A DNA stretch of 33,240 bases. It comes from a virus. A program made the position numbers and the translations under genes. Of this stretch, positions 23,692-28,513 are shown in pieces; position 1 is the first letter of the stretch; each line of letters starts with the position of its first letter. Where the stretch lies: positions 1 through 33,240 of the IMG/VR virus record IMGVR_UViG_3300050821_014220. The stretch is one strand, 5' to 3'. Below the pieces are notes generated by a model. It did not search any database. It was given only the letters and a program-made list of their open reading frames with translations, and was not told the origin of the DNA.

Positions 23692-23745
23692 TTTTCTCGC
23701 TCGTCTGTCTCGCTCTCATTTTCTCGCTCGTCTGTCTCGCTCTCA
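23692..23745. repeat. exact 27-bp tandem duplication at a gene junction
   Basis: Two identical 27-bp units (23692-23718 and 23719-23745). On the minus strand each begins with TGA and contains GAGCGAGAAAA. The first TGA is the stop of the transglutaminase-fold gene, and the last unit supplies the ribosome site of the next gene, so the junction module was doubled. Confidence 0.9.
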
Positions 23746-24663
23746 TCTGCCCCGCCTTCCGCCCAGGCCCCAGGCGACCAGGCCGAGGGCGACCAGGCCG
23801 AGGATCCACGGCGTCGCGCCGCCGCCGAGTGTGGCCACGAGCTGCCCGCTCGAGGGATATCCCACGCTTGGCGCGACCGCGCCTGGCGTGAGTCCGGTGA
23901 AGTAGCTCGAGTACGGTGACGCGCCGGATGCGTAGCTGAAGGGAATCGTGGGCTGCCCTTGCACGGCGCTGGCAATTTGCGCGGCGCCGGATTCAAGAGT
24001 TGCCAGCGCCGTGATGTCCGTCGCGGCGTCGCCCAAAACGCGATACGCGGGATCATCACCAAGGACCGCGTAGCCATTCAGCGAGCTGCAGCGGCCGCCG
24101 CTCATGTCCTGGTAGGTGCGATTCGTGAGGGACCACACGCGCTTGCGAAAATATCTTTGCGGCGCAGATCCGTAGGCGCTCCCCGGGCGCGCCACGTCCA
24201 TCGCCACCCAATTCCCGGGAACCACTTCCGCCTCGGGATAAATGTGGGAAAACTCGTCGGGCGCGGTGGGATCCGCAGCGATCGTCACCAGGCGGGAAGG
24301 AATTCCGATCGTGCCGAGCAGGGAAGCGATCAACGTGCTGGCGTCATCGCAATCGCCCGCAAAGTTTTGCAGGAGGACGCGAACCGGGCGCACAGTCTCT
24401 TTGGGCCCGAACGGACCGACCGGATCCTCGACATAGAACCAGCGGGTAGCGACAGCGTTATAAATCGCGTGCGCTTTTTGATCCCGGCTGAACTGGTCGT
24501 CAATCCCTCGAATCATTCCGATGGCAGCGACGTTGACCTCGGGATCCTTTACTGCGTTGTCCACAACCGGACGGATGAGATTGATCGTTTGCTCGACGCC
24601 TTGATCGCCCGAAAGAAGTGGCGCGCCCATCACTCCATTGAAGGTTCTCAGGTCAGGAAGCAC
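23743..24663 (-). CDS. transglutaminase-like protein with C-terminal anchor, 306 aa
   Basis: First gene of the long minus operon. Residues about 50-170 form a transglutaminase-like (papain-fold) domain with the full triad: Cys105 in FAGDCDDA, His140 in EFSHIY and Asp156 in WVAMDVA. Such domains act as cysteine proteases, crosslinkers or peptidases. A mixed region follows, then a linker and a C-terminal transmembrane helix ending GLGGRRGR. There is no signal peptide. I chose the GTG at 24663 because GGAG lies 6 bases upstream; a GTG at 24675 lacks a ribosome site. A capsid protease, crosslinker or peptidoglycan peptidase are all possible roles. Confidence 0.75.
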   Translation of the reverse strand: MLPDLRTFNGVMGAPLLSGDQGVEQTINLIRPVVDNAVKDPEVNVAAIGMIRGIDDQFSRDQKAHAIYNAVATRWFYVEDPVGPFGPKETVRPVRVLLQNFAGDCDDASTLIASLLGTIGIPSRLVTIAADPTAPDEFSHIYPEAEVVPGNWVAMDVARPGSAYGSAPQRYFRKRVWSLTNRTYQDMSGGRCSSLNGYAVLGDDPAYRVLGDAATDITALATLESGAAQIASAVQGQPTIPFSYASGASPYSSYFTGLTPGAVAPSVGYPSSGQLVATLGGGATPWILGLVALGLVAWGLGGRRGR

Positions 24664-24687
24664 TTGACACTCCACGTGACAAAACGA

Positions 24688-25008: not shown

Positions 25009-26337
25009 ATGCCAGTGAAACCCGCCGCGGGCGAAACACTTGTTGAGGAACGACGCACAAGACTCGAATCAGCATCGGATCCACAGGAAAAAACAGGCGG
25101 CAGAAAGCATCCGCCGATGTGGGACTTCATCGATACGCTCACTCCCGCCGATTGGAACACCAAAGATTACGAGATGACTCTCTACCGCGGATCGAAAGCA
25201 AACCGCGGCCCATGGTGCGGAAAGTTTTTTGAGCCGATGACTCCGGACAAAATTCAAGAGAAGTTCGGCGGTGGCGGTTACGTGATCTACATGAAGGTGC
25301 CGCCGGGGAATCAGCTTCGCTACTTTGAGGAAATCGAAATCGTGGGCGCGCCGAAAAACGATTTCATTTCGTCAACGACCGGGCCGACCGCGATGGATGC
25401 GACCTCACAATTGATCGCACTTTTTCGCGAGGAAATGCGCGCTATGCGGGAAGAGATGAAAGCCTCGCGCGGCGGAGACATGGGCATCGAAGCCGTCAGG
25501 CAAGCAATGCAGTTGAACGGCCAGGTGTTTTCTTCCGCGGTGCCGGCGGTGACGAATGCAATCAGCGGAGCCAACGGTTCGGGACATCGCGATCCCGGAC
25601 CGATGGACGAACTCACGAAAACATTTATGCAGGCGGCGATCGCAAAGATGCTCAACCCCGCCGATCCGATCGAGCAGTTCGCTAAGATGGCTACGGCGAT
25701 GGGAACCCTCGGATATAAAATGGGCGGCGCTAACGCTTCGGGGAGTGTGGCCGCTGAACTTGCGCGAGGATTGCTGAACGCCCTCCCGCAGCTCGCCAGC
25801 CACGTCGGTGGCATCATGGATCAATATCGCCGCGCCGAGGAAGCCAAGCTGCAGCAAGTGGCGCTGATGCGCGGAGCTCCCGGGGCGCGTGTAATTACTC
25901 AGCCGGCCGCGCCGGCGGCACCTGCCGAGCCAGGTCCGGGAACGAACGTGATCGAAATGCCGGCCGCGCCGGCAACGGAAGCGAATCCCGCGGCCGCAGC
26001 AGGGAATCTAACTTCGGAGCAAACCATTCAAGCGGAACAGCTCTTTCAATTCGTGGAAACAAAAGTGGTCGAGCTCCTGCTGAACACGGATCTCACTCCC
26101 GAGGAAGCAGCGAATGATGCCCTCACGTTCATCGATGTGACGGACAAGAACCTGGTCGACGAGCTCCTCCGCCACGGCGAGGCAGGCCTGCGCTGGGCAT
26201 TCTCCCATCGCGAGATCTTGCAGCGCGTTCCCCTCGGCCCGCGCCTGGACACCTTCATCGCCGAATTCATCAAGAACGGCCGCAAGGTCGCCATGCCGAT
26301 CCCGGCGATGCCAAATCCGAACATCCCGCCGGCCTGA
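25009..26337 (+). CDS. hypothetical protein, 442 aa, upstream of the replication genes
   Basis: The ATG at 25009 has GGAG 6 bases upstream. Residues 35-115 form a small domain with aromatic and Gly-rich strands (WDFIDTLTPADWNTKDY, GPWCGKFFEPM, GGGYVIYMKVPPG). The next part is a helical, methionine-rich charged region (about 125-160) with coiled-coil character, then an Ala-rich helical region (about 210-290), a Pro/Ala linker (about 295-330) and a helical C-terminal domain (about 340-430). No membrane segment or catalytic motif. It has its own promoter and could be a replication or packaging accessory, or a scaffold. Family not recognised. Confidence 0.7.
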   Translation: MPVKPAAGETLVEERRTRLESASDPQEKTGGRKHPPMWDFIDTLTPADWNTKDYEMTLYRGSKANRGPWCGKFFEPMTPDKIQEKFGGGGYVIYMKVPPGNQLRYFEEIEIVGAPKNDFISSTTGPTAMDATSQLIALFREEMRAMREEMKASRGGDMGIEAVRQAMQLNGQVFSSAVPAVTNAISGANGSGHRDPGPMDELTKTFMQAAIAKMLNPADPIEQFAKMATAMGTLGYKMGGANASGSVAAELARGLLNALPQLASHVGGIMDQYRRAEEAKLQQVALMRGAPGARVITQPAAPAAPAEPGPGTNVIEMPAAPATEANPAAAAGNLTSEQTIQAEQLFQFVETKVVELLLNTDLTPEEAANDALTFIDVTDKNLVDELLRHGEAGLRWAFSHREILQRVPLGPRLDTFIAEFIKNGRKVAMPIPAMPNPNIPPA

Positions 26338-26428
26338 GTTCCGAAAACTTTTCGAGGTTGGATTGAACAAACCTCCAATTTCCAGAACTCCACAGGATTT
26401 CCACAGCTTCATTGCCGCACCTGCAATC

Positions 26429-26443
26429 TTATAATAATTATAA
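26429..26443. promoter_or_regulatory. TTATAAT-A-ATTATAA palindrome upstream of the replication promoter
   Basis: A perfect 7-bp dyad around a single A, 13 bases before the -35 of the replication promoter. The core ATAATAATTAT is shared with the palindrome at 4112-4128. A good candidate operator. Confidence 0.5.
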
Positions 26444-26455
26444 TGGCCCTGCCCC

Positions 26456-26484
26456 TTGACAGGCCTTCCTGATATTTTTAGTAT
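26456..26484 (+). promoter_or_regulatory. sigma70 promoter of the replication genes
   Basis: TTGACA (26456-26461), exact 17-base spacer, TAGTAT (26479-26484). The predicted start near 26491 would give a leader of about 97 bases that contains the interleaved stem structure. Confidence 0.75.
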
Positions 26485-26510
26485 CGCGGCCTCTCGGACT
26501 AAACCGTCTT

Positions 26511-26583
26511 GCGCGGAGGGTTGAGTTCAGGGTCTCGCAGCTCGTGGCTCAACCCTCCGGCGCTTTTCGGAAACGAGCTGCGA
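26511..26583 (+). promoter_or_regulatory. interleaved two-stem leader RNA (attenuator/pseudoknot)
   Basis: Arm A, GGAGGGTTGAG (26515-26525), pairs with CTCAACCCTCC (26548-26558); with flanking bases and one bulge the stem reaches 15 bp and is followed by TTTT (26564-26567), like an intrinsic terminator. Arm B, TCGCAGCTCGT (26535-26545), lies in its loop and is perfectly complementary to ACGAGCTGCGA (26573-26583), which ends 4 bases before the ATG. The order A-B-A'-B' is that of an H-type pseudoknot. It could control termination, ribosome access, or both, and so copy number. Confidence 0.7.
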
Positions 26584-26587
26584 AACC

Positions 26588-27025
26588 ATGACGATTCTCC
26601 AATTTCCCGGCACACGCAATCTTCCATCCTACCCAGATATCGAGAGAGCAGTGCTCGGAGCGATTCTTCACAATCCCTCGATTCCTAACGCTGCATTGAA
26701 AGCAGCGATCGAGATCGAGCACCTGCACTCCCTAGCCTTCACGATTCCAGCACATATAAAAATTTTCCAACGTATGGTCAAGATTCATTGGGGAGGGAAG
26801 CTCCCAATCAATCTGGAGACATTGACGGAAGCCTTTCTCGCTAAACTGGTCGAGGAATCTCCCGAGTTTTTCAGAGGACTTTATACAGAAGTCGAATTCG
26901 CCAGAAAAGTGCTGGAATACGCAAGGATTATTCGAGAGGCGAGTCAAGCGCGGGGGCTCGTCGCGGTTGACGTCAATGAGTTTTTACTGATGAAGTTTCC
27001 GAAGCGCTCACACCGTTCGGTTTAG
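26588..27025 (+). CDS. DnaB N-terminal-domain protein without helicase domain, 145 aa
   Basis: Residues 10-75 match the N-terminal primase/loader-interaction domain of DnaB-type helicases: PSYPDIERAVLGAILHNP, then a helix with HLHSLAFTIPAHIKIFQRM. There is no Walker motif and the protein ends after about 145 residues. The same domain opens the next gene, so this is a stand-alone paralogue, possibly a regulator of the helicase, a loader, or a helicase-ring subunit. Its ribosome site is weak and lies next to the leader stem B', so its translation is probably controlled by that RNA. Confidence 0.75.
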   Translation: MTILQFPGTRNLPSYPDIERAVLGAILHNPSIPNAALKAAIEIEHLHSLAFTIPAHIKIFQRMVKIHWGGKLPINLETLTEAFLAKLVEESPEFFRGLYTEVEFARKVLEYARIIREASQARGLVAVDVNEFLLMKFPKRSHRSV

Positions 27026-27037
27026 AGAGATTCCCCT

Positions 27038-28513
27038 ATGGCTACAGTTGCTTTTCGTCGTGACAAACCTCTCCCAGTAGACATCGCAAAAAAACTTCCA
27101 TCAAATCCAGATGCAGAGAGGTACGTGCTCGGCGCCGTGCTGGTGGACGAGACGAACCCCAATGCAGCTCTCGCTGCAGTACGCGAGCACCTATGGGTTG
27201 ACGATTTCCATGTGCTGGAGCATCAGGTGATCTTCCGTCACATGCTCGGCCTGGCCGTGGCCCAGGCGCCGATCGAAACCGTGGCATTGATCGAGGCCAT
27301 CGAGCACGGCGGCGACCTGGGTAAGTTGGAAGAGGCTGGCGGAATCGCCTACCTCCTGAAGATACAAGACGGAATGCCGCGGGTATCCAACGCCGCACAC
27401 TACGCGAAAATCGTTAAGGAAAAGTCAATTCAGCGGCAGCTCGCACGCGAAATGTACCGCCTGCACAATGAGGCGATCGAGGGGCACACTTCCGCGGAAG
27501 ACTTAACAAGGCAGGTCGCCGAATTAGGGAAACCATCGGCGCCCAGCGAGAATCCCGCCGTGGTGGTTGGGTTTTCGTCGGTGTTGCAACGCGAATGCTC
27601 GCCAGTCGAGTACGCCATCCAGCCGCTACTCTCTAGCCACGGCACAGGAGAGATCTACGCATGGCGCGGCACAGGTAAGAGTTTTATAGGAACGCAGATG
27701 GCCGTCGACATCGCCCTGGGAAAATCGATGATGTTCGGCGGGCACAGGGGAGGCGGCGGCCACTGGCCGATTTCCCGGCCGTTCCGCGTGCTGTACGTCT
27801 ACGGCGAGATGGACGATTCAACGATCAAGGAACGCAGCCTGGCGATCGCGCGTATATGCGGCGGCCAGGCTCCCACCGACGAGCAGCTCGGGACGATGTG
27901 CAAGGACTACCAGAAAACCTGGCGGCCGAAACTTTCTACCGCGCGCGACAGAAAATTTATTGAGGATCGGGTCTTCGGCTACGGATATGAGGGACTGATT
28001 TTGGATAACGTGTCAACGCTGTGGCCCACAGCGCAAGAGGCGCAGTCAGATCGCAGCGCGGTCCTGGCCGAATGGTACACGGATCTCAATCAGCGCGGCG
28101 TATGGGTGATCTTCCATCACCATGCCGGCAAGAGCGGTGAGCAGCGTGGCGACTCCGAAAAGGAAGACATGCTGGATTTCGTTATGAAACTGCGCCGGCC
28201 GGCGAACTACAAAGCGGAGGAAGGATTGCGCGTCGAAGTCCACATCGAGAAAAATAGATTCAAGCCGGAGAACGGGCAATGGCTGATGCCCTTTGAGATT
28301 CACTTGACCCGCGATGTGAACAATGAACCGGTGTGGATCACACATCCAGCCCACGAAGCGCAGCGCCGTGCAGCGTTTGAAATGTTCAAAAACGACATGC
28401 CGGCGATGTTTGTGGGCCAGGAAGTAGGCGTATCGAGGGCCACGATCTACCGCTGGAAAAAGGAATTTGACGAGAACCAAAACCCAGACTTCCACACCGA
28501 GCCGGAAGAGTAA
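27038..28513 (+). CDS. DnaB-N / RepA-like helicase / HTH fusion, 491 aa
   Basis: Domains in order: DnaB N-terminal domain (about residues 15-135; NPDAERYVLGAVLVD), a linker, a RecA-fold ATPase of the plasmid RepA type (about 185-425) with Walker A RGTGKS (211-215), a Glu in VYGEMDD (257), Walker B GLILDNVS (Asp323) and the HHHAGKSG sensor (360-367), then a C-terminal helix-turn-helix (about 456-477; VGQEVGVSRATIYRWKK). It would unwind the template as a hexamer during initiation and could bind the iterons through the HTH. No polymerase is encoded, so host polymerase is probably used. It lies immediately upstream of the iteron region. Confidence 0.85.
   Translation: MATVAFRRDKPLPVDIAKKLPSNPDAERYVLGAVLVDETNPNAALAAVREHLWVDDFHVLEHQVIFRHMLGLAVAQAPIETVALIEAIEHGGDLGKLEEAGGIAYLLKIQDGMPRVSNAAHYAKIVKEKSIQRQLAREMYRLHNEAIEGHTSAEDLTRQVAELGKPSAPSENPAVVVGFSSVLQRECSPVEYAIQPLLSSHGTGEIYAWRGTGKSFIGTQMAVDIALGKSMMFGGHRGGGGHWPISRPFRVLYVYGEMDDSTIKERSLAIARICGGQAPTDEQLGTMCKDYQKTWRPKLSTARDRKFIEDRVFGYGYEGLILDNVSTLWPTAQEAQSDRSAVLAEWYTDLNQRGVWVIFHHHAGKSGEQRGDSEKEDMLDFVMKLRRPANYKAEEGLRVEVHIEKNRFKPENGQWLMPFEIHLTRDVNNEPVWITHPAHEAQRRAAFEMFKNDMPAMFVGQEVGVSRATIYRWKKEFDENQNPDFHTEPEE

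Follow-up and report, generated by a model that had tools for sequence, protein, structure and literature searches.

Interlocked stems before a viral replication helicase suggest a leader pseudoknot kept by shape in a clade of uncultivated viruses

The leader of the replication genes in an uncultivated virus was found to contain four complementary arms in the interlocked order A-B-A′-B′, and nine further virus records carried the same layout, in different letters, before a related helicase gene. The arrangement looks like an unlisted family of cis-regulatory pseudoknots placed before the replication helicase of one clade of uncultivated bacterial viruses. A constant shape with changing letters at this place points to an RNA device that may time the translation of the gene, and the leader pseudoknot probably fills the ribosome-loading tract and regulates how the replication helicase is translated.

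The stretch of DNA analysed, here called the window, is the IMG/VR virus record IMGVR_UViG_3300050821_014220 with its full length of 33,240 bases. All evidence presented is drawn from sequence; the viruses are uncultivated and the contigs may be fragments. The leader lies between a gene for a 442-aa protein (25009-26337) and the ATG at 26588. An initial annotation had assigned it to replication genes, which agrees with the domain search, since a DnaB N-terminal domain gene is followed by a helicase with DnaB-N and AAA_25 domains. The features are as follows.

26456-26484, plus strand: sense promoter TTGACA-17-TAGTAT, 12.2 bits, with a predicted RNA start at about 26492
26511-26513, plus strand: outer extension of stem A, GCG, 5′ side, pairing with CGC at 26561-26563 (read from the sequence)
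26514-26525, plus strand: arm A, 5′ strand of stem 1, with all 12 nt complementary to 26548-26559
26526-26534, plus strand: loop L1, 7 nt when stem A is taken to include two U.G pairs
26535-26545, plus strand: arm B, 5′ strand of stem 2, 11 bp with 26573-26583
26546-26547, plus strand: loop L2, 0-2 nt
26548-26559, plus strand: arm A′, 3′ strand of stem 1
26560-26563, plus strand: bulged G (26560) and outer extension of stem A, CGC (read from the sequence)
26564-26572, plus strand: loop L3, beginning with TTTT (26564-26567)
26573-26583, plus strand: arm B′, 3′ strand of stem 2, at the usual Shine-Dalgarno place
26588-26590, plus strand: start codon, ATG, of the unit's first gene
26588-27025, plus strand: 145-aa protein, a DnaB N-terminal domain alone (PF00772, E 4.9e-11)
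27038-28513, plus strand: 491-aa replication helicase with DnaB-N, AAA_25 and a sub-threshold HTH_23 match (domain search)

The initial annotation had described two perfect 11-bp pairs, which is correct for B/B′, while A/A′ is a perfect 12 bp. Its account of a stem of 15 bp with one bulge, then TTTT, was borne out when GCG/CGC was added to stem A, and so was the four-base spacer (26584-26587) between B′ and the ATG. With mismatches allowed, B/B′ extends to 17 of 19 paired positions (26527-26545 with 26573-26591) and reaches over the ATG. The same annotation had called stem A terminator-like, a label that did not hold. The window stem is followed by TTTT only and is not listed among the predicted terminators, and an intrinsic terminator or attenuator was rejected because the relatives share no U-tract after A′, the sequence continuing there as GGAAAAG in L002 and CCAGTG in L079.

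The interlocked layout before the start codon, as first annotated, was confirmed from the sequence and exceeded chance. By a score for interlocked pairs that requires the end of B′ near an ATG, the window leader reached 24.8, against a maximum of 17.0 among 1000 dinucleotide shuffles, none of which attained its score. The same result, 0 of 1000, was obtained for L002, L006, L044, L079 and L088, while the weak leaders of L004 and L005 were equalled by 11 and 5 of 1000 shuffles, respectively. The z-score of the nested fold of the window leader was only −2.23, a modest value because a nested fold cannot count both interlocked stems.

Among 1199 ORF starts, with 14 repeat loci left out, eight scored at least 24; these were the window, L044, L002 and L006 together with L011-L014, four copies of one unrelated locus. 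The stem pair of the latter (L011 8428-8538, also in L012-L014) is another interlocked pair before a replication-like gene of 275 aa. It lies within an ORF of 31 codons, the stop of which overlaps the ATG of that gene, and its alternative pairing would cover a GAGGT sequence. When every distinct ATG context of the loci, 71,754 over both strands, was ranked, seven of the top ten were the leaders described here, with 4 observed contexts against 0 shuffled at scores of at least 21 and 9 against 2 at scores of at least 20 (every second context was shuffled and the counts scaled by two). L223 and L004 scored 17.2 and 16.2, levels at which chance matches also occur.

By a criterion fixed beforehand, a set of 80 helicase loci, eight of which had an open 5′ end or lacked a start, yielded L216 as a new leader; it and seven copies of known leaders scored at least 16.2, and every other locus 14.8 or less. 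L223 was missed by the in-frame test of these loci, was recognised by eye and then obtained its score in the ATG scan. When the search took in every ATG within 1500 nt upstream (1731 contexts, 73 loci; known copies collapsed into earlier loci), the only cases besides the known copies were L216, L223 and the marginal L271 (14.8).

Eight of the relatives (L002, L004, L005, L006, L044, L088, L216 and L223) were obtained by helicase searches of viral contigs, the last of which returned the best 80 of 140 relatives, and L079 was found through its transglutaminase-like neighbour. The helicase of L002 is 53% identical to that of the window. In all ten records A-B-A′-B′ sits before the start codon of the unit's first ORF. 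This ORF is the 145-aa gene in the window; in L223 it has 29 codons and a stop that overlaps the ATG of the helicase, and in the others it is the helicase itself. Since the leaders of L004 and L005 are identical, the ten records represent nine leader types. The arms pair in all ten clade members, weakly in L004 and L005, and relatives with non-complementary arms, which the initial annotation had named as refuting evidence, were not found among them. L005 shares about 91% helicase identity with L006 but carries the leader of L004, and the leader and gene front have apparently been swapped by recombination among these three. The 145-aa gene of the window is extra; in the closest relative, L002, no lone DnaB-N gene is found at the like place and the leader stands directly 5′ of the helicase.

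The ten helicases formed one clade with a support of 100/99 in a tree of 29 rows, and the 19 outgroup rows, hand-picked from relatives without the element, all fell outside it. One scan covered 66 hand-chosen loci. No such leader was found behind TTGAC(A/G) sites in L069-L073 and L075, virus relatives without this helicase, or by reading in L094 (27% identical). The element belongs to a virus record and not to a known plasmid, and 135 isolate phage records and 731 plasmid records matched the helicase, none of either over 80% of its length. The 145-aa protein as first query found no relative, nor did the genome scan with query A1. The scan with query A5 gave mostly matches to the DnaB N-domain (best 80 of 499), and its loci were included in the ATG-context scan. 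Acidobacteria MAGs head the DnaB matches among these best 80, which is weak evidence for Acidobacteria as a possible host.

Also in the window, a transglutaminase-like protein (PF01841) with a hydrophobic C-terminus is encoded on the minus strand at 23743-24675; the gene stays beside the helicase unit in relatives, and the protein had no match among isolate phage records. Two copies of a sequence of about 45 nt (ccctttgcggcgatgccggccggggccccgccgacgaagatcgt) lie at about 29372 and about 31157, the second after short gacatc repeats.

Pairing was compared by exchanging arms between viruses. In nine leader types, L005 being left out as identical to L004, the mean energies of the own duplexes were −19.7 kcal/mol for A and −17.1 kcal/mol for B, against a cross-virus mean of −7.1 kcal/mol, and none of the 72 cross pairs of either stem reached the own value. 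Covariation, suggested as a check at the outset, is thereby evident for both stems. L079 and L088, the flanks of which align well, illustrate this: arm B changes from TGGCAGGTTGG to TGGCAGCCAG and B′ from CCGACCTGCCA to CTGGCTGCCA, so that the arms are altered on both sides and the pairing is kept. No sequence core was shared across the leader types, and the MAFFT alignment of seven leaders, which is not structural, served the promoter region only. A metabolite riboswitch was ruled out by inference from this lack of a common core. A known Rfam family was ruled out as well, with 0 matches to Rfam 15 at gathering score in the whole window; the best matches in 26400-26700 had E values of 0.66 and 0.92, far below gathering.

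Which strand folds was addressed by a strand-symmetric count of wobbles, made, like the promoter analysis, on seven leader types (L005 left out, L216 and L223 not included). It gave 7 G.U against 1 A.C, an excess that fits folding of the sense RNA. The support is modest, a single helix of L044 contributing three of the seven G.U pairs. Against sense folding, the window scored 26.3 on its antisense strand and 24.8 on its sense strand, and the two strands of L088 tie; L216 and L223 lie outside this comparison as they do outside the shuffle and geometry sets.

A strong sense promoter was detected in all seven leader types scored, with TTGACA at a like place and predicted starts at −79 to −104. 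By reading, L216 and L223 have TTGACC at that place, and TTGAC(A/C) is present upstream in all ten leaders. A Shine-Dalgarno (SD) core (GGAG, GAGG, AGGA or AAGG) was absent from positions −18 to −1 in 10 of 10 leaders; an AGAGGA in L002 lies just 5′ of this 18-nt span. The tract where such a site is expected is taken by B′, which is placed at about −15 to +1 relative to the ATG. Arm A begins at about −67 to −83, and B′ ends at −2 to −5, or at +1 in L004 and L005, leaving 1-4 nt between stem 2 and the AUG in eight records and an overlap with the AUG in these two.

Across the leaders L1 measures 3-9 nt, L2 −1 to 5 nt and L3 2-25 nt, and the geometry is that of an H-type pseudoknot, with interlocked helices, L1 and L3 long enough and L2 near 0. 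Coaxial pseudoknots require such L1 and L2 lengths and arms A and B that barely overlap. A simple A-form estimate places the spans within reach, with two exceptions: for the complete outer stem of L002 and for the 17-bp stem of L044, L3 is too short, and fraying would be required if stem 2 forms. A-form coordinates, a pseudoknot penalty of 9.6 kcal/mol, promoter weights, stacking energies and the anti-SD letters entered these calculations as background values. In crude energies, all nine types gained 5.6-14.4 kcal/mol when stem 2 was added to the A hairpin.

From this we infer that both stems are formed in one molecule. The leader RNA of the helicase unit would fold during transcription into an H-type pseudoknot, the hairpin A:A′ forming first and B′ then pairing with B in the hairpin loop, nearly coaxial with stem A as L2 is about 0. 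Stem 2 would fill the tract needed for loading of the 30S subunit, and translation of the helicase (in the window, of the unit's first gene) would be blocked or low until something opens the structure, possibly ribosomal protein S1, a viral or host RNA-binding protein or the gene product itself. As to the sign of the effect, default repression is more likely than recruitment through S1, because the stems are strong and adjoin the AUG.

An exclusive two-state switch, in which A:A′ would be the ON form and B:B′, covering the start, the OFF form, with a blocker of A or A′ making the selection, is an unlikely but not baseless reading. In the window, L079 and L088 the two folds are close in energy, B alone being at least as stable as A alone, and stem 2 is sterically difficult to reconcile with the complete outer stem in L002 and L044. 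For the remaining six types, however, the same crude energies put the A-only fold ahead by about 5-18 kcal/mol, so that B:B′ would rarely form unless as a pseudoknot, and yet its complementarity is kept. The arms of a switch usually compete for the same bases, whereas A and B here share at most one nucleotide.

A bolder form of the pseudoknot reading, structure-only control, seems rather unlikely too: the pseudoknot, kept by shape alone while its letters change deeply and lacking an SD, would gate ribosome loading independently of an SD. S1 or the viral helicase itself would open it, and RNA unfolding would time the onset of replication. Improbable in turn is a loading element of the opposite sign, with the pseudoknot recruiting the 30S subunit, for example through S1, and aiding translation. 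S1 reportedly unfolds pseudoknots, as the title of one referenced study has it. The missing SD core suits such recruitment, and pseudoknots are described as high-affinity S1 targets in the part of the literature consulted (PMC10931766), but so strong a stem beside the AUG would itself hinder loading.

The initial annotation had seen a resemblance to RNA-based copy-number control of plasmids. An antisense element of the IncI/IncB plasmid type shares with the leader the replication gene, the loop-to-leader pairing and the drift of sequence under a constant shape, and the part of that proposal concerning RNA structure in a replication-gene leader stands. The antisense part is not supported: opposite the leader, where a promoter search had been advised, a scan for sigma-70-like sites gave none of the 7 types an antisense site better than the best of 60 shuffles, and a short leader ORF overlapping the helicase start was seen, by reading, in L223 only of the ten. 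Antisense RNA was ruled out on these sites, and this type of control is very improbable.

Equally improbable is a DNA element (origin, primosome site or operator), which would fit the adjoining replication genes and the equally good pairing of the antisense strand of the window, but arms that differ among relatives, the surplus of G.U over A.C, a place fixed between promoter and ATG and an iteron-like array behind the helicase gene instead all speak against it. This array, a candidate origin in the window, comprises 12 of the window's 15 TGAGAC/GTCTCA sites within 28500-29060; the region 3′ of the helicase gene (28514-29031) is non-coding and AT-richer (GC 0.43 vs 0.58). TGAGACA is among the commonest 7-mers 3′ of the helicase in L002, L079 and L088, and CCGCACA takes its place in L004 and L044.

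Three known systems come nearest to the proposed leader pseudoknot in working principle. The repZ gene of the IncIα plasmid ColIb-P9 reportedly has a pseudoknot, according to the title of Asano and Mizobuchi 1998, and would be alike in using it as a translation switch of a replication gene. The I-complex replicons require translation of a leader peptide and the antisense RNAI, as stated in the portion of PMC10286972 consulted, neither of which was found in the window. The autogenous translational operator of gene 32 in phages T4 and RB69 likewise concerns a phage DNA-replication protein and a leader pseudoknot; there, as far as the sections consulted describe it (PMC535899), a component of about 28 nt at the 5′ end is followed by a little-structured tract of more than 40 nt that includes the ribosome site as well as UUAAA/UAAA repeats. 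Here, in contrast, the pseudoknot is about 65-75 nt with stems of 8-17 bp, abuts the AUG without an SD, and has no UUAAA/UAAA tract of that type between it and the start, as stem 2 adjoins or overlaps the ATG. In the E. coli rpsO (uS15) and alpha-operon (uS4) leaders a pseudoknot at the ribosome-binding site similarly controls initiation; it embraces that site and is bound by the ribosomal protein, in uS15 via a U-G/C-G motif, according to the text available to us (PMC10931766), whereas no sequence is common across the leader types described here. On the features tested, and within the portions of these sources consulted, the element is a member of none of the three.

Such an element was undescribed in the literature searched, subscription journals being mostly outside its scope. 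Because the arm letters change freely and the pairing stays, sequence-based RNA searches miss it. The natural arm swaps at hand would allow a study of how a pseudoknot adjacent to the AUG controls initiation without an SD, and the element may offer a means to study how a virus times its replication.
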